64,000 nucleotides of DNA from contig NZ_LMSJ01000002.1 in assembly GCF_001428105.1 (NCBI RefSeq), positions 159,475 to 223,474 of the forward strand. Direction: 5' to 3'. The notes below the pieces were generated by a model. The model was not told the DNA's origin. It ran no database searches and worked only from the letters and a program-made list of their open reading frames with translations. This stretch comes from Paenibacillus sp. Soil766. Lineage in GTDB: Bacteria; Bacillota; Bacilli; Paenibacillales; NBRC-103111. A program made the position numbers and the translations under genes. Position 1 is the first letter of the stretch; each line of letters starts with the position of its first letter. Shown one piece after another: positions 47,026-54,469 of this stretch.

Positions 47026-47114
47026 AGATGTAAGCCTCCCAATACATATATTGTTTTGATATTTATATGATATCACTTTTTACTTTAATTGTAAAATGAA
47101 ATATAAGAGCAAAC

Positions 47115-47219
47115 ACTTTTGTGAACAACAACTGATCAAGGAAAATAAAGATCGTTAGTGGAAAATAAAGTGTGTTAGTGGAAAATAAAGTTCGTTAGTG
47201 GGTGTTTACTTTTGTGAAC
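47115..47219. repeat. Three tandem 20-bp repeats bounded by 12-bp direct repeats
   Basis: GGAAAATAAAGNNNGTTAGT occurs three times without gaps (47140-47159, 47160-47179, 47180-47199); only two or three bases vary. The array is bounded by two copies of ACTTTTGTGAAC (47115-47126 and 47208-47219). Such arrays of about 20 bp are typical of transposase-binding ends of Tn7/Tn5053-like elements, but no transposase is present nearby. Confidence 0.75.
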
Positions 47220-47277
47220 GCCCATTTTTTTATTATTTGAGGTTCGTTATTAGTTTATGATAAAGGCTGTTGCCGGC

Positions 47278-47392
47278 GGGCATTAAACTAAAACTAAAGA
47301 GCGGAATGCCTTGTCTTAAGAACTGAGACCCTTAGCCCGTTGCTGAGAGTCTCTTTGTAGTAATCCACTCCAACTGACTGTGCAGGACAAGG
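47278..47392 (+). ncRNA. Possible structured RNA or attenuator
   Basis: Several complementary stretches nest here: GGCATT (47279-47284) with AATGCC (47305-47310); CCTTGTC (47309-47315) with GACAAGG (47386-47392); GAGAC (47325-47329) with GTCTC (47349-47353), enclosing AGC/GCT. The first two pairings compete for the same CC, so they are alternatives. The stretch is richer in G and C than its surroundings. I know no family with this design. Confidence 0.3.
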
Positions 47393-47459
47393 AATATCGC
47401 GAATCATGTCAAATATTTATTGTGGAATATTATGTAAGTAAATAGGGAGTATTAACAAA
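47393..47459. other. Non-coding remainder of the 749-base gap before the dioxygenase gene
   Basis: The gap from SPFH (47025) to the dioxygenase gene (47775) contains the repeats, the possible RNA and a 31-codon frame. The rest is AT-rich sequence without visible features. Confidence 0.5.
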
Positions 47460-47555
47460 GTGAAAGAAATTATTATTTCTATTACAATTATTGGAGGTGC
47501 GGTCCTAACCTTTGCCACTGGTATATATGCAGGAGCTTACATTGAGATTATTTAG
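47460..47555 (+). CDS. Possible hydrophobic micropeptide, 31 aa
   Basis: GTG at 47460, ten bases after AGGGAG, opens 31 codons that encode an almost fully hydrophobic helix (IIISITIIGGAVLTFATGIY) ending in TAG. It looks like a small membrane peptide such as a toxin or regulatory subunit, but the length and GTG start leave chance as a serious alternative. Confidence 0.3.
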   Translation: MKEIIISITIIGGAVLTFATGIYAGAYIEII

Positions 47556-47774
47556 GCATATATTAACCGGGATATCAAATTTAGTGTCGAAGCAATGGGT
47601 ACCTCTCAAGTTTACCTGTATTATTCGCCACATAGTAGCAAGCATAATTTGGAGAATTTGTTGATAAATTCTTATTTAGCAAATAAGTAAAACTGGTTAA
47701 GTGTTTGATGGCCGGCTTGATAAATACTTATCAAATGGATAGAAGCAAACTAAATTTTCTATGGGGCGTGTAGT

Positions 47775-48437
47775 ATGGATATTAACTTAAACAAATTGCG
47801 CGATAACGGATGGATATTCGAAAGGGAGAAATTAATTAACCAGGATAACCTACTACAACTAGCATTTGATTTGGGTGAGCCAATACCATCCAGGTTAAAT
47901 AGTACTCTTATTGATACATTAGTGCCTATGGATGCGAATAAAGCAAAACCAAAGTCATTGAGTGCAGTATATGGAGTAGGGCAATTTCCGTTACATACTG
48001 ATACTGCATACATAAAAATTCCAGCAAGGTATATTATTTTATATGCAAAGCAAATTGAAGGTGAAGTCCAGCCAACAACTCTATTGGATCTTAGTAAAAT
48101 AGGGTTTTCTCAAGATCTTGAAGAGCGACTGGATAGATGTTTATACACCATTGCAAATAGTCGGCATAGTTTCTTGGCTACATTACGTGGGTATAGCAAT
48201 ATTCACAGAAAGAAATGGATCAGGTTCGATTCAAGTTGCATGCGCCCAACGAATAAGGAATCATCTGTTACAATGAACGAGCTTAATGATTCGATCTCTA
48301 AAATTAAATTGGAAATAATAAACTGGTCTCAAGGCGATATCTTGATCATAGATAATTGGCGCTGTTTGCATGGGCGAGGTGTAGCTAATTCAAGCGCCAA
48401 AGCAGTTAGGGTTATAGAAAGAGTTACAATACTATAA
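47775..48437 (+). CDS. Fe(II)/2-oxoglutarate-dependent dioxygenase (TauD/TfdA-like)
   Basis: This is a 220-residue protein with the iron-binding facial triad: H-x-D in FPLHTDTAYI (about 75-77) and the distal His in NWRCLHGRG (about 198), with the 2-oxoglutarate Arg shortly after in RVIERV. This makes an oxygenase of the TauD/Gab (clavaminate-synthase-like) superfamily likely. It is shorter than TauD itself (about 280). ATG follows GGGGCGTG. It stands 17 bases ahead of a HEPN/zinc-ribbon gene in an AT-rich accessory region, so the two are probably one transcript. The substrate is unknown; a small metabolite, a nucleic acid or a protein residue are all possible. Confidence 0.82.
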   Translation: MDINLNKLRDNGWIFEREKLINQDNLLQLAFDLGEPIPSRLNSTLIDTLVPMDANKAKPKSLSAVYGVGQFPLHTDTAYIKIPARYIILYAKQIEGEVQPTTLLDLSKIGFSQDLEERLDRCLYTIANSRHSFLATLRGYSNIHRKKWIRFDSSCMRPTNKESSVTMNELNDSISKIKLEIINWSQGDILIIDNWRCLHGRGVANSSAKAVRVIERVTIL

Positions 48438-48454
48438 GAAATAGGGAGGCCATT

Positions 48455-49348
48455 ATGATAGACTACGAATCTTTATGGAACAAATCCAAATTATTCATAG
48501 GAAAAGCAATTAACAGACGTGACGAAGGCGATTTTTCAGAGTTCCAACTCTGGGCATCTCTTTCTTTGGAACTCTTAGGAAAGGCTGCATTAACATATAA
48601 GCACCCGTCATTGATTGTTGATCCCAACACTCCAAATGGATTCTTGGTTGCCATTAACGAGTCTCAGAGTGTGGATTTTAAGACAATTACAGCAAAAACA
48701 GTTTTTGAACGCCTTCAAAACTTAGTAAATGTTTCTCGTTTTGATGCTGATACAAAGAAATTTTGCATGACGCTAGCAAATCACAGAAATGAGGAATTGC
48801 ATTCTGGAGCACTTCCTTTTGTAGGAATGAATATGGACCACTGGTTGCCGAAGTTTTGGGATGTATGCAAAATGCTTCTTGAGTTTCAAAACAAATCGTT
48901 AAGTGATCTGCTCGGACCAAGAGAAGCAAGAGCGGCAGAAGAGATTATTCAAGCTAGGTCCGTTAGTTTGAAGGCGCTAATTGAAGCTCGAATTCAAAGA
49001 CATCGTACAGAAGTGAGGCAAAAATACGAAGGGCCAGTTCCTCGAGATATGTTGAAAGTGATCCCTGTACTAACAGATGATGATCAGGAAACCATTTCAT
49101 GCCCTTCTTGCGGTGGACACGCAGTAATATACGGAGAAATTTTAGATGAAGGACCAGAATATATCGACAAGGAGGAGCCTTGGATAACATATCAGGATAA
49201 TCAATATGAAATCACGTCATTAAAGTGTAGGGTTTGCGATTTGAAACTGAATAGTTTGGACGAGGTAACCGCCGCTGGCATAGATCATACATTTGAGAAA
49301 ACAATCACTATTGAACCTGATTATGAACCCGATTATGGAAATGACTAA
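48455..49348 (+). CDS. HEPN-like protein with C-terminal zinc ribbon
   Basis: This protein of 297 residues has an all-helical N-terminal half containing NHRNEELHSG (about 109-118), which has the R-x4-H form (R-NEEL-H) of HEPN ribonucleases. The C-terminal third holds CPSCGG (about 215-220) and CRVC (about 258-261), a four-Cys zinc ribbon, followed by a very acidic tail (PDYEPDYGND). HEPN proteins with this motif often cleave RNA in toxin-antitoxin or defence systems. ATG follows AGGGAGG. It is coupled to the dioxygenase 17 bases upstream; no antitoxin of the MNT type is adjacent. The family assignment is by pattern only. Confidence 0.7.
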   Translation: MIDYESLWNKSKLFIGKAINRRDEGDFSEFQLWASLSLELLGKAALTYKHPSLIVDPNTPNGFLVAINESQSVDFKTITAKTVFERLQNLVNVSRFDADTKKFCMTLANHRNEELHSGALPFVGMNMDHWLPKFWDVCKMLLEFQNKSLSDLLGPREARAAEEIIQARSVSLKALIEARIQRHRTEVRQKYEGPVPRDMLKVIPVLTDDDQETISCPSCGGHAVIYGEILDEGPEYIDKEEPWITYQDNQYEITSLKCRVCDLKLNSLDEVTAAGIDHTFEKTITIEPDYEPDYGND

Positions 49349-49433
49349 AATGCAATGTAACAATTAGAACTAGGTAATTCAGATTTGGGATGGTAATTAT
49401 ATTTTTATGATTAATTATGATATTCACATGATG

Positions 49434-49470
49434 CGTCCCGCATTTTAGAGATTGTTTAGCGGGACGATTT
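49434..49470 (+). terminator. Probable terminator of the dioxygenase-HEPN pair
   Basis: CGTCCCGC (49434-49441) and GCGGGACG (49459-49466) pair perfectly, with a 17-base loop followed by ATTTTGGG. The T-run is short. A near-copy of the flanking string GATTTGGGATGG (49382) recurs after the hairpin at about 49467. Confidence 0.55.
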
Positions 49471-49557
49471 TGGGATGGCGATCTATATTCATATCATAAT
49501 TTGTTTCACTGTGAATTGCTTAGTACTTTCAACTAAGAATTAGAGGTGCATTATTCA

Positions 49558-51333
49558 ATGAGCAATATTCGTATTGAGGGCATAAAAGTCCAAAATTACA
49601 GGTCATTTGGCCAAGAAGTTACAGTAAGTTTTCCTAATAGCGAATATAAAAAACCAGTAGCAATAGTGGGATACAATAATGCAGGTAAGACAAATTTTCT
49701 TAATTCAATTTTGTATGGAATAACAGAAAAGTATGTGACTAAAGATACCTTTACAATCAACGACTTCCACAAAAGGTCTTATAGCAATATACCTAAAATT
49801 GTAACTAAAGTAACCAGTAGTAGCGAGCCTAAAGTTGAATGGGGGACGGCGAATCTCACTGGATATCATTTTTTAGAAATCAAACTCGATGGTCATGAAA
49901 TAGAGAGCACAAAAATTAGTTCATATGATGATTACAATCAAAGTAACAGGAGTTCTGGCGCTTTCGGTGCAGCAAAGTATTTTAAAATATTCTACATAAA
50001 CTTCCATGAAATTAAAAAAGAAATATCGACAAAGAAAACAAGTTGGGGAAATCTGTCTTCTTTTCTAGCAAAGCATATCAAAAGCATAGTTGATACAGAC
50101 AATATTATGGTCGGCAAAAAGGATGTTTTTAAAGGGGAAGTAAAAAGCGCGACTGATAAAGTACTTGCAAACTCAAAGTTAAATGAGTTTCTTTGCAAAA
50201 TACAATTTAATTATTCAACAAATTTAAGACAGAATCAGTGCCACATTGAATTTGGATTACCTGATTATGAAGATATATTTTTAGAGATGATGTTTAAAGT
50301 TGGTCTTAACGGAGATATGGATAATCTAGTTCCAATTGACCATTTTGGCGATGGCTACATCTCTATGTTTGTAATGGCAGTAATTCAAGCAATAGCGGAG
50401 AGCAACGAAGTTGACAAGTGCCTGTTTTTATTTGAAGAACCTGAAAGCTTTTTGCATGAAAATCACCAAGAATATTTCTACAAAACCGTCCTTTGTGGAT
50501 TAGCAGAAAAGGGACATCAAGTAATTTATACAACGCATTCTGACAAAATGTTGGATATATTTGATACCCGAGGCTTGATTCGTTTTGAGTTTGATGAAAT
50601 AACAAAGCAAACTGTTTTAAAGTACAACAAGCATAATAAAGAAATTTTCGAAGATAAAGATGATGAAGCACTATCTGAAATTAAAGATTACAACAATTAT
50701 ATTAAGTTAATTGAACCCAATCTAAATAAAATAATATTCAGCAAAAAAGTATTACTAGTGGAAGGCCCCAACGATCTGATGACGTATAAAGAAATTATCA
50801 GGAGATATGTATTAGGTATCACAGGTGATGAGAAGTTTGCTGCAACATTTTTGAATTTTAATAATATTGCTATTGTTCCTCATCATGGTAAATTAACCGC
50901 TTCGATATTAATAAAACTCTGTAAACATTTTGGTATTGACTATTTTGTGATTAATGATTTCGACTTTAAACAAGATTTTGTCTCACAACTCACCTTTACA
51001 TCAATCGAAGAGTTACAAAAAAGCCATCTCTACAATGAAGGTTTAGAGCAAATTATTATTTTTAATTCCAAGGGTGAAGCATTGAATGATAAAACCAAAC
51101 GTTCAATGATAACAACGAATTGGAGATTAATTTCGGAGGCATCCTTTGAGAAAATACATTTTAACATTCCAAAACTTGAGTCGGTTATAGGCTATGACTC
51201 CAATGACAAAAACAGTGTCGGAATCTGGAAGGCACTCAAAGATATCTCTCAATTTGGAGAGGAAATTTTCCCGATAAAACTTCAAGAATTCCTTGAGATA
51301 AATCAGATCAAGAAGAAGGATTCATCTTCTTAA
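49558..51333 (+). CDS. OLD-family ATPase with TOPRIM nuclease domain
   Basis: This is a protein of 591 residues that joins an ABC/SMC-type ATPase to a TOPRIM nuclease. Walker A is GYNNAGKT (38-45), preceded by VQNYRSFG as in RecF-like proteins. The signature/Walker B region FGDGYISMF and LFLFEEPESFLH lies near 260-294. The TOPRIM half starts at about 397 with VLLVEGPNDLM and has the DxD-like FVINDFDFK near 463-470. ATG at 49558 is 9 bases after AGAGGTG; an in-frame GTG lies inside that site. This is the class of Old (phage P2) and GajA. No UvrD-type GajB helicase is next to it, so it would be a stand-alone OLD nuclease. Confidence 0.88.
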   Translation: MSNIRIEGIKVQNYRSFGQEVTVSFPNSEYKKPVAIVGYNNAGKTNFLNSILYGITEKYVTKDTFTINDFHKRSYSNIPKIVTKVTSSSEPKVEWGTANLTGYHFLEIKLDGHEIESTKISSYDDYNQSNRSSGAFGAAKYFKIFYINFHEIKKEISTKKTSWGNLSSFLAKHIKSIVDTDNIMVGKKDVFKGEVKSATDKVLANSKLNEFLCKIQFNYSTNLRQNQCHIEFGLPDYEDIFLEMMFKVGLNGDMDNLVPIDHFGDGYISMFVMAVIQAIAESNEVDKCLFLFEEPESFLHENHQEYFYKTVLCGLAEKGHQVIYTTHSDKMLDIFDTRGLIRFEFDEITKQTVLKYNKHNKEIFEDKDDEALSEIKDYNNYIKLIEPNLNKIIFSKKVLLVEGPNDLMTYKEIIRRYVLGITGDEKFAATFLNFNNIAIVPHHGKLTASILIKLCKHFGIDYFVINDFDFKQDFVSQLTFTSIEELQKSHLYNEGLEQIIIFNSKGEALNDKTKRSMITTNWRLISEASFEKIHFNIPKLESVIGYDSNDKNSVGIWKALKDISQFGEEIFPIKLQEFLEINQIKKKDSSS

Positions 51334-51562
51334 TTATTTATCCACACAAAGGCACCCTCAATGATCTCTTGAGTCCCGACTTTAGATTTGAGCATTTAGT
51401 CCACTTAACAGTGTACGTGATCTTTTGTTGCGCTTTTGCCAGGAAGCCGCTTCACTGCTCTGAATCCGGAATACAAGCATTAACTATGATAGTCAGTTGT
51501 TCGTTGCAACTTAGCATGATGGACAAACATTAAAACAGCTAACCTATATTAATTGAAAGGGC
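51334..51562. other. Non-coding gap with mixed composition
   Basis: The 229 bases between the OLD gene and the AlbA_2-type gene have no credible frame or hairpin. The segment at about 51420-51480 is richer in G and C than the flanking genes and could be a remnant of older chromosomal sequence. Confidence 0.4.
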
Positions 51563-52696
51563 ATGGAAGAAATGACAACTTTTCATAAAGCTTTCGATGA
51601 AGTGACGGAAAACGATTTGAAATTATTAATTGAAAGTGGTGCTACAGAAGGGTTACAGCTCGAATTTAAAGAAACGATTTCAAATAATATCAGTCTAGTT
51701 GAAGAGGTAGTTGCGTTTGCAAATACACAAGGAGGAGATCTTTTTATAGGGGTGAAGGAGAGGGATGGGACTCCGGTTAATGTTAGTGGTATTGATATCA
51801 ACCCGGATCAAGAAATTTTAAAGTATAAGCAGTGGGTAGAAACTAATACTGATCCAGCTCTTACAAATATATTATATAGACATATTTCCTTGGCCAATGG
51901 AGGGCATGTTATCCATATCCGCGTACCAAGGAGCTGGAATGGGCCGCATATGGTAAAGAATTACAAGTTTATGATACGTACAGCCTCTGCTAAAGTCCCT
52001 GCAGGTACATCTGATATTAGAAGAATGATGAATGTTAGAGATCATTTTCTTGAGCAATACAATCGATTTCGTGTACAACGTATTGAAAAAACATTAAATG
52101 TATACAAACAAGAGACGCCACTTGTACTAGTTCACTTCTTACCAACTTCTGCATTTGATATCGAATCAAATTATCCTTTAACCGAAACGCGAAATAGTAT
52201 TAATCTTTCTATCCTGGGCGGTTCAGGATATAACCAAGGAATAAATGCACATGGATTATACTATCAATCTATTGGTGCCAATGGTTATAGGGGGCATACC
52301 CAAGTATTCCGGAGCGCTATTATTGAGCAGGTGTCAAACCTTTCGTTTAATTATCGTGAAAGCTATGATGAGCCACGTAAAGAGTTTTTTAGCGCAACAC
52401 ATTTTGAAGATTCTCTTAGAGAATCAATTCTTAATCAATTAATAAATTATAGAGAGTTAAGCATGCAAGATCCTTTTTACATATTTGTTAACATAATTGG
52501 GGCAAGGGGGGTAATAGGAAGTTCTTACGGGGCATCTTTCATTTCAGCTCCTCAATCAATTGATGATGACTTCCTTCAACTACCAGAAATAATGATTGAT
52601 TCGCATGTAAATCAAGATTTAGAAAGGGTTATTTTAACAATTATTAACTATTTATGGAATGCCTTTGGATTTGTAAGTAAGCCAGAATATGGTTAA
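51563..52696 (+). CDS. AlbA_2/Schlafen-like ATP-binding protein
   Basis: The first 150 residues match the AlbA_2 (formerly AAA_4, Schlafen core) fold: LEFKETISNNISLVEEVVAFANTQGGDLFIGVKERDG in parts, then HISLANGGHVIHIRVPRSW. The remaining 220 residues are an uncharacterised C-terminal region, with no helix-turn-helix that I can see. Schlafen-type domains act on nucleic acids and several are defence nucleases, while others are regulators. The frame starts with ATG at 51563, two bases after GAAAGG; ATG at 51572 is the other option. It lies alone between two gaps of 229 and 315 bases. Confidence 0.8.
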   Translation: MEEMTTFHKAFDEVTENDLKLLIESGATEGLQLEFKETISNNISLVEEVVAFANTQGGDLFIGVKERDGTPVNVSGIDINPDQEILKYKQWVETNTDPALTNILYRHISLANGGHVIHIRVPRSWNGPHMVKNYKFMIRTASAKVPAGTSDIRRMMNVRDHFLEQYNRFRVQRIEKTLNVYKQETPLVLVHFLPTSAFDIESNYPLTETRNSINLSILGGSGYNQGINAHGLYYQSIGANGYRGHTQVFRSAIIEQVSNLSFNYRESYDEPRKEFFSATHFEDSLRESILNQLINYRELSMQDPFYIFVNIIGARGVIGSSYGASFISAPQSIDDDFLQLPEIMIDSHVNQDLERVILTIINYLWNAFGFVSKPEYG

Positions 52697-53011
52697 TACA
52701 AATAACATTTTAACATTACAAATCTCAATATCCATTAATTTCGGCTAGGATGCATTTGTGTCATTGGACAGATAACTCTACACTAGCGGCTGATTATGAG
52801 AGGACGAAGTGTGTCCAAACGCCTTTATTAGGGAAGTGTTCAAGGAAATAGGACCACGTTTGAAATTTGCGCTATAGTGTATCGCTTTGACAGAGTTTGA
52901 ATGAATAGCCCGACTCTGGAAATTTCATTTATTTAATCCAATAATATTAGTAAATCTTAGAAATTAGATTATTCTGTCAACAATCGTAACAAAGGAGTAG
53001 CAATCAAACAA
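52697..53011. other. Gene-free stretch, 315 bases
   Basis: No open frame with a ribosome site, hairpin or repeat is visible. The right end contains the AAAGGAG (52991-52997) of the next gene. The central part (52770-52900) is richer in G and C than the genes around it. Confidence 0.45.
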
Positions 53012-54298
53012 ATGAATTCCATAAGTGAGATAACCAAACGTGATATTTTCGATTTGTTTAAATATGGGATGGATATACCTGATTTATGGGAGATGCAAAA
53101 AGTGCAGTACAATTACTTTGGAAGGTTAGAAGAATTCGAGTTTTGCAAGAGACTATATGATTTAAAGGAAATGCCAAGTCTAGATAAAAGGTACTGCAAT
53201 GCTGAAGAAGATATTTGGCAACATACAGTAAACAATGATGATTATCCATTTTGTTGGGTATTTGAAGACGAACGATTCCAATTAAAAAACGGAAGTGATG
53301 AAATATATTTAAAATTCATCTGTGAGATTTTTCATCCGACAGTAAGAAACGAGAATGGATATTGGGAAAAGTTTCTGGACGAAGTTAACAAATTCCTTAA
53401 AAACGATGGGTATGAAGTTTTCCCAGCAGGAAAGATTTCCAACCGGGATGTCTATAGTTGGAGGATTTATAATTTAGCAGAAAACAAACTATTTATTCCG
53501 TTTTCTCAAAGGAATCAAAAGGCAATTAAAGAGAAAAGAATGCCAATTTCAATCAAAAAGAACGCTAGGAATCAAATATATCAACTGTTTGAAAAAAATA
53601 ATGATGTTTATCGAAAAACAGATAAAACTACTGGTTGGGATTACGATGTTACAACAAATGAAGAGGTTATCGCTGATATTCGGCAATTTTACATACCTAA
53701 ATGTTTTAATGAGCAGGGTCAGTATGAGGAAACTAATAACTTAAAAGATTTTGTGTTTTCAAGTTCACCCAATTGTGTACTCGATGCAATAGAGTTTTTT
53801 GAAAATTATAACAAGAATACCGATTTCGAGGCAGAAGTTAATGCAATTTTTAAACTGAATGAAGTTCCTTTCAAGCTGAGTAATGGTAAAGTCGCAAGCA
53901 CATTTAATATACAAATAAAGGATAGTGCATTAATACCGATTCAGGAAGCAGGTCTCAAAGAGTTGCTCCAAGAAGCAGCAAACTATTACGATAAAGGTAA
54001 TCTTAATATTGCTGTTGAAAAACTATGGGACGCTTTTGAGAGGCTTAAAACATACTATTCTCCTACTTTGGACAAGAAGAAATCTGTAAGTAAGATTATT
54101 GGAGATATGAGCGGTCAAAAAGCTCATTATATGGATCTATTTGAAAAGGAATTTATTGAGCTTACGCAAATCGGGAACAGCTTTAGGATTCGTCATCATG
54201 AAACAACAAAAATCAATATTGAGGATGATAGACACTATGATTATTTTTATAAGCGTTGTCTATCACTAATTTCAGTTTCGGTTCAATATTTAGCCTAA
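53012..54298 (+). CDS. AbiJ-like protein (AbiJ_NTD4 plus HEPN-type C-terminus)
   Basis: This protein of 428 residues starts with SEITKRDIFDLFKYG (about 4-18), as in the AbiJ N-terminal domain 4 family. A central region rich in Tyr, Trp and Asn follows. The last 130 residues are all-helical, with FRIRHHETTKI (about 394-404), an Arg-His-His-Glu pattern like that of HEPN-type abortive-infection C-terminal domains. ATG at 53012 lies 14 bases after AAAGGAG, longer than usual. AbiJ proteins were found as phage abortive-infection factors in lactococci. It is the last gene of the accessory island. Confidence 0.75.
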   Translation: MNSISEITKRDIFDLFKYGMDIPDLWEMQKVQYNYFGRLEEFEFCKRLYDLKEMPSLDKRYCNAEEDIWQHTVNNDDYPFCWVFEDERFQLKNGSDEIYLKFICEIFHPTVRNENGYWEKFLDEVNKFLKNDGYEVFPAGKISNRDVYSWRIYNLAENKLFIPFSQRNQKAIKEKRMPISIKKNARNQIYQLFEKNNDVYRKTDKTTGWDYDVTTNEEVIADIRQFYIPKCFNEQGQYEETNNLKDFVFSSSPNCVLDAIEFFENYNKNTDFEAEVNAIFKLNEVPFKLSNGKVASTFNIQIKDSALIPIQEAGLKELLQEAANYYDKGNLNIAVEKLWDAFERLKTYYSPTLDKKKSVSKIIGDMSGQKAHYMDLFEKEFIELTQIGNSFRIRHHETTKINIEDDRHYDYFYKRCLSLISVSVQYLA

Positions 54299-54469
54299 GG
54301 TGATCTAGATTAATTAAATTAACGTCTGCCGCGTGCAGCCCTTTATTGTATGCGACAGGGAACGGGGAGGCCGAATTTGTCGGGTTTCGATACCGTGCGA
54401 TTAAGGAATGAGTAGTAATGGACCATTTGGCTATGAACTGTTTATAGAAAAACCTTCATGAAAATAAAG

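Follow-up and report, generated by a model that had tools for sequence, protein, structure and literature searches.

Genes and features of the locus

The window, by which we mean the whole stretch of 64,000 nucleotides analysed, is part of an 8.26-Mb genome, and the nearest relatives that carry the gene pair described here are also Paenibacillus. An earlier note, made from the sequence alone, had reported an oxygenase gene followed by a gene for a HEPN-like protein with a zinc ribbon; the two open reading frames lie where it had placed them, on the same strand and separated by a 17-base gap. The features of the locus are as follows.

47235–54325 (no strand assigned): accessory island with the gene pair and three further defence-type genes, adjoining a core SPFH gene
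47775–48437, + strand: small (220 aa) TauD-family Fe(II)/2-oxoglutarate oxygenase, clavaminate-synthase-like
47994–48002, + strand: HTD, with the iron ligands H74 and D76 of the oxygenase
48369–48371, + strand: distal iron ligand H199 of the oxygenase
48408–48422, + strand: segment with R212 and R216, the predicted 2-oxoglutarate-binding arginines of the oxygenase
48444–48449, + strand: GGGAGG, a good ribosome-binding site for the HEPN gene, before the ATG of that gene, as read in the sequence
48455–49348, + strand: HEPN/zinc-ribbon protein (297 aa), predicted RNase effector
48785–48802, + strand: RX4H motif R111-N-E-E-L-H116 of the HEPN protein
49100–49237, + strand: zinc ribbon of the HEPN protein, C216/C219 and C258/C261
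49334–49345, + strand: C-terminal tail Y-G-N-D of the HEPN protein, which the oxygenase might use as a substrate or for docking
49546–51333, + strand: OLD-family AAA ATPase/TOPRIM neighbour (PF13175, PF20469; PADLOC Old, E 3.5e-34)
51563–52696, + strand: Schlafen AlbA_2 neighbour (PF04326, E 6.8e-17)
53012–54298, + strand: AbiJ_NTD3/NTD4 protein, PDC-S32 (PF18860, E 5.8e-52; PDLC04995, E 4.7e-52)

As had also been proposed, the pair starts an island of defence-like genes, with the OLD-type AAA/TOPRIM, Schlafen AlbA_2 and AbiJ_NTD3/NTD4 genes downstream of it. Between 47296 and 54325 the sequence is 97.4% identical to that of Paenibacillus sp. V4I3, compared with 76.5% for the left flank bearing the SPFH gene, which is core to the genus (29/30 genomes), and in an empty-site comparison homology to relatives lacking the pair stops at 47095–47234. 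The jump in identity, the core SPFH gene and the end of homology together indicate that the island is an accessory segment, recently shared and sited at a variable locus; the fetched relatives did not yield the right flank, so the boundary obtained is that on the left. Rfam yielded no match in the region, and a promoter scan returned no more sites there than in shuffled sequences.

At its left edge the island has a terminator-like hairpin (47197–47234), before which, at 47139–47200, copies of a GTTAGTGGAAAATAAAG-like repeat lie in tandem; as homology to the pair-less relatives ends there, hairpin and repeat may point to a hotspot for insertion next to the SPFH gene. Among the neighbouring genes, that at 53012–54298 (AbiJ_NTD3 and AbiJ_NTD4, with a PDC-S32 C-terminal part) may be another HEPN-type defence gene of this island, and the Schlafen AlbA_2 protein encoded at 51563–52696 has an uncharacterised C-terminal half and no NCBIfam match.

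The first gene encodes an amino-acid-type oxygenase with an intact catalytic site

Profile and structure searches agreed with the oxygenase fold proposed for the first protein. It matches the Pfam TauD family (PF02668) with E 3.7e-10 and 40.6 bits, against a Pfam cut-off of 27 bits, and its AlphaFold2 model (pLDDT 94.3) finds its PDB counterparts among oxygenases of the TauD/clavaminate type (best E 5e-12). The best PDB matches of a profile of 57 relatives were clavaminate synthase (CAS), NapI, the lysine hydroxylase KDO1, AsnO and VioC, and we therefore group the protein with the amino-acid-type oxygenases; these closest solved enzymes hydroxylate or oxidise amino acids, AsnO being an asparagine oxygenase. 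The curated cut-offs of the named equivalogs Cs1, GntD and VioC were not reached (for example, 34.7 vs 345 bits).

Residue conservation was counted in a non-redundant set (n = 57), in which H74 and an Asp or Glu at position 76 are kept in 57/57 members, H199 in 56/57 (the lone exception being a gap), R212 in 56/57 and R216 in 57/57. The HxD/E...H triad and the 2-oxoglutarate-binding arginine that mark TauD/TfdA proteins are consequently retained in 56–57 of the 57, and the triad is H74/D76/H199, the ligands having earlier been numbered one too high, as H75/D77. This retention bears on the view that the oxygenase has no catalytic role and works as an antitoxin simply by binding its HEPN partner. 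Overlap between the two genes in many carriers does suggest a complex, but iron ligands and 2-oxoglutarate arginines kept throughout such divergent members would be needless for mere binding, and we regard this view as very improbable.

The second gene encodes a likely HEPN protein with a zinc ribbon

Both landmarks described earlier for the second protein, an R-NEEL-H motif and a four-Cys ribbon, were located, as R111-NEEL-H116 and Cys 216, 219, 258 and 261. The former conforms to the RX4-6H motif of the HEPN superfamily, with R111 conserved in 56/57 members and N112, H116 and E39 each in 57/57; the four ribbon cysteines are likewise all present in 57/57. In the AlphaFold2 model (pLDDT 92.9) the N-terminal part is helical and the RX4H motif lies at the end of helix 98–117. 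The top PDB matches of the model include the archaeal HEPN structures 1wol and 2hsb (probability 0.89 and 0.94, target TM 0.58 and 0.70, respectively, with a Foldseek E of only ~1), and other HEPN structures (2q00, AbiV, HepT and sacsin) matched with E about 1. In PADLOC the protein matched DUF3644 (E 1.3e-6), HEC-08 (E 6.8e-6) and PDC-S64 (E 9e-4). None of the Pfam HEPN models matched it and, across the subfamily, the PADLOC DUF3644 model matches only 6/57 members and Pfam PF12358 (DUF3644) 0/57 at E 0.01. Because of the DUF3644 profile match, the invariant motif residues and the HEPN structures among the top matches of the model, we consider the HEPN identity of the protein likely and well supported but short of proof, support for the proposed fold itself being moderate, with Foldseek E values near 1.

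The two genes are co-inherited on mobile elements and beside defence genes

With the HEPN profile, a scan that took one genome per species turned up 77 loci, and four more came from viral contigs; together with plasmid and relative loci these made up the locus set. The oxygenase gene lies directly upstream, on the same strand, in 89/89 loci with a recognisable HEPN gene of the subfamily (in the remaining locus, L086, neither gene was recognised), and the genes overlap by 4 bp in 43/56 non-redundant pairs, the +17 spacing in the window being an exception. Since the seeds of the locus scan were members of the pair, plasmids were searched separately with each protein, and at E 1e-3 the oxygenase and HEPN queries each matched the same 46 of 72,556 records, of which 32 are conjugative. 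The 89/89 linkage and the identical plasmid sets from either query lead us to reject chance neighbourhood. Moreover, pairwise distances among the oxygenases track those among the HEPN proteins (r = 0.89), and none of 2000 permutations gave a value above 0.13.

Carriers are found in Bacillota, Pseudomonadota, Actinomycetota and Verrucomicrobiota; other labels occur only on single metagenome-derived records. Their distribution is patchy, the pair being present in 3/298 genomes of the host's order and in about 6/385 genomes of an alphaproteobacterial class. Four loci on viral contigs were reached by the HEPN query (three have phage-type neighbours in common) and more by the oxygenase query; as the pair was absent from all 50,697 phage records searched, phage genomes were rejected as its main home.

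Outside the window, the pair neighbours TrlF/Ppl genes (seven loci), type I restriction–modification (R-M) genes, Gabija-like ATPase and UvrD helicase pairs, and Lamassu, among others. At E ≤ 1e-20, 41 PADLOC families were found beside the pair compared with 10 in matched control regions of the same genomes, crude counts because one protein may match several models; the families beside the pair included Ppl, REase_I, Lamassu and pAgo-type, whereas the control regions held mostly general enzymes and regulators. The survey across genomes suggested earlier thus returned a conserved gene order with defence genes nearby, and placement in defence islands and on mobile elements, combined with patchy distribution, is that expected of a defence or conflict module. 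Of the outcomes that the earlier note had named as refuting, the two that sequence data can reveal, a structure prediction lacking a HEPN fold and a pair not conserved elsewhere, did not occur. The pair is a genuine two-gene module, conserved across phyla, borne by mobile elements, plasmids and prophages among them, and found beside defence genes.

We also considered that the oxygenase might be a plain secondary-metabolism amino-acid hydroxylase, with the HEPN-like protein next to it only as a regulator or as a neighbour of no related function. Its relatives by fold and profile are indeed natural-product enzymes, but biosynthetic genes do not recur beside the pair, co-inheritance is strict across four phyla, and the subfamily stands apart from other TauD proteins of the same genomes: the oxygenase profile found a single strong member in each of 20 whole genomes, always the paired one, with the next more than 100 bits lower. 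We hold this explanation to be extremely unlikely.

A TrlF-family (PADLOC Ppl) gene was observed upstream of the pair in loci L005, L009, L018 and L024, about 10 bases away in the first two, where a GIY-YIG gene also lies downstream. TrlF, the pair and GIY-YIG possibly constitute a larger, four-gene variant in Alphaproteobacteria.

Oxygenase-paired HEPN proteins share a conserved C-terminal tail

HEPN proteins paired with the oxygenase end in a short N-[DE] tail (EPDYGND in the window). The pattern N[DE]x0-2 at the C-terminus occurs in 93/96 oxygenase-paired proteins vs 0/25 scored homologues without an oxygenase, which amounts to a single evolutionary contrast and not to 121 independent ones, as one branch of the tree holds both tail and oxygenase. 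On that tree the paired HEPN proteins form one clade (support 100/99) apart from the unpaired homologues, and the link between tail and oxygenase is clean but rests on this one split. The three paired exceptions are L031, with a single-residue change, L044, whose gene is truncated, and the divergent L114 of A. tumefaciens, which ends in YQDE, without the Asn. The tail takes the form E-P-[DE]-Y-G-N-D or, in other sub-clades, Y-E-x-D-N-N-E-x, F-E-E-D-F-N-E or H-F-S-N-D.

Pairwise identity reaches 79% over the last four residues, compared with 28% over residues 267–289 and 38% over residues 1–200, and yet the tail is the least ordered part of the model (mean pLDDT 59 for residues 291–297), being predicted to be flexible. 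Conservation for a DNA-level reason, such as a regulatory element or gene overlap, was rejected, because codon choice and the stop differ freely between genes (35 distinct 15-mers among 66 genes); this synonymous variation indicates that the tail is under selection at the protein level. The YGND end occurs in no other protein of the host genome, and the single extra DNA match to it there is antisense within a permease gene. The conserved N-[DE] tail, found only in HEPN proteins paired with the oxygenase, may be a site at which the oxygenase acts on its partner.

A proposed model for control of the HEPN protein by the oxygenase

Few bacterial toxins and immune effectors are as common as HEPN RNases. 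For the present pair, the conserved pairing, the intact catalytic residues in both proteins, the oxygenase-tied tail and the defence and mobile context are directly supported. From these we infer a substrate (the tail, and within it the Asn), a direction of control, an RNA target and protection against phage, to arrive at a model that we advance tentatively, as somewhat short of probable in its entirety: a mobile defence or toxin–antitoxin-like module in which the oxygenase hydroxylates the HEPN tail to set the RNase. Both genes would belong to one such module, the HEPN/zinc-ribbon protein serving as an RNase effector that cuts RNA and the oxygenase as a working amino-acid-type Fe(II)/2-oxoglutarate enzyme produced in step with it. 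The oxygenase would recognise its partner by the flexible tail (...EPDYGND), where it would most likely hydroxylate a side chain, with the near-invariant Asn as the prime candidate, a choice that accords with amino-acid oxygenases, including asparagine oxygenase, as the closest solved relatives. Modification of the tail would switch the RNase on or off; in the simplest version the RNase would stay silent until infection disturbs the modification.

The strongest rival to tail hydroxylation is that the tail only docks the oxygenase, or acts as an inhibitory plug, and that the true substrate lies elsewhere (a phage or host protein, nucleic acid or a small molecule), its oxidation, or the failure of it, being sensed by the HEPN protein. 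A conserved flexible tail would fit docking equally well, CAS-like relatives act mostly on free amino acids, and the zinc ribbon could sense nucleic acid. On the other hand, a short end that barely diverges across proteins 25–30% identical, with a single Asn, an acidic residue next to it and at most two variable residues after that, resembles a modification site, with which docking is still compatible. We judge the docking explanation to be on the unlikely side.

Under the hydroxylation model, a strictly co-inherited oxygenase would add to HEPN modules, whose characterised modifying partner in the literature cited here is a nucleotidyltransferase, a control chemistry of protein hydroxylation that needs O2, Fe(II) and 2-oxoglutarate. 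In its most specific form, which we think rather unlikely, this would be an O2- and 2-oxoglutarate-dependent immune or toxin switch in prokaryotic defence, operating through FIH-like hydroxylation of the tail Asn of an RNase effector. If so, what the effector reads during infection would be the state of oxygen, iron or 2-oxoglutarate, or else that its modifying enzyme has been lost. FIH is an asparaginyl protein hydroxylase of animals and a JmjC-type cupin, and its reaction would be of the same kind as the hydroxylation of a flexible-peptide Asn that is proposed, and only proposed, here.

Broken copies of the pair and a possible role as toxin–antitoxin

The HEPN gene is interrupted by in-frame stops or a frameshift, downstream of an intact oxygenase gene, in a Rhizobium sp. 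007 plasmid (L093:7657-8802) and in the IncP plasmid pRSB223 (L117:5977-6911); in another plasmid locus, L115, the oxygenase gene is apparently frameshifted and the HEPN gene intact, and in L044 both genes are affected. These copies are not decisive in telling which protein would be an antitoxin, being too few and possibly sequencing errors, with L115 weighing weakly against a strict need for the oxygenase in that role. They bear on a further explanation, namely that the pair is a plasmid- or island-stabilising toxin–antitoxin without an anti-phage role, the oxygenase neutralising a HEPN toxin. The 32/46 conjugative plasmid carriers, the small overlapping two-gene layout with the modifier first, and L093 and L117 would all suit such a system. 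Repeated siting in defence clusters (Ppl, type I R-M, Gabija-like, OLD and AbiJ) and the reverse state of L115 argue against it, and we consider it improbable.

Relation to known systems

The closest functional parallel, drawn already in the earlier note, is HEPN/MNT (HepT/MntA, the type VII toxin–antitoxin), likewise a two-gene operon with an RX4H HEPN protein and a partner enzyme that could modify the toxin. The parallel is functional at most: the partner in HEPN/MNT is a nucleotidyltransferase with GSX10DXD, whereas here it is a 2-oxoglutarate oxygenase, and the HEPN protein, unlike HepT, has a zinc ribbon and a conserved C-terminal tail. Furthermore, the tyrosine of the HepT RX4HXY motif, the class I modification site (PMC7641770), is absent, with G, A, S or P at that position in 57/57 members. 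Given a TauD/CAS-like rather than MNT partner and no RX4HXY Tyr, membership of HEPN/MNT was rejected.

HEPN similarity to the second protein is detectable in the DUF3644/EC042_2821-type proteins and in PADLOC HEC-08 and PDC-S64. EC042_2821 is a zinc-ribbon fusion found in R-M operons, and the survey of the HEPN superfamily that describes it includes zinc-ribbon fusions and DUF3644 and does not mention an oxygenase (PMC3710099). The oxygenase, in turn, shares with CAS, VioC, AsnO, NapI, KDO1 and GntD the fold, the HxD/E...H triad, the C-terminal arginines and an R-x-D region, but is ~100 aa shorter than clavaminate-synthase-like enzymes, scores about tenfold below their curated cut-offs and, unlike them, has an obligate HEPN partner and a defence context.

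PADLOC has no match for the oxygenase, only weak ones for its HEPN partner and no system containing both genes, and we found no description of the pair in the open literature, the search covering neither subscription papers nor preprints. The earlier suggestion of an undescribed two-gene system accordingly stands as regards a conserved pair absent from the family libraries and open papers searched, with control by hydroxylation as a hypothesis. The pair is a real, conserved and, in the sources searched, undescribed two-gene system, a variant among modifier-plus-HEPN modules, and can now be annotated in many genomes, where the genes are labelled 'TauD/TfdA family dioxygenase' and 'hypothetical protein'.

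HEPN/zinc-ribbon proteins without a TauD partner (the A7 family, in Streptomyces and relatives) resemble the paired ones in combining HEPN with a four-Cys ribbon, and carry RNGxxH, but have no adjoining oxygenase and no N-[DE] tail and form a separate clade. This oxygenase-less family, represented by L077:16411-17310, L105, L106 and L119-L138, is the sister clade of the paired family and occurs in about one in ten of the sampled genomes of the Streptomyces order.
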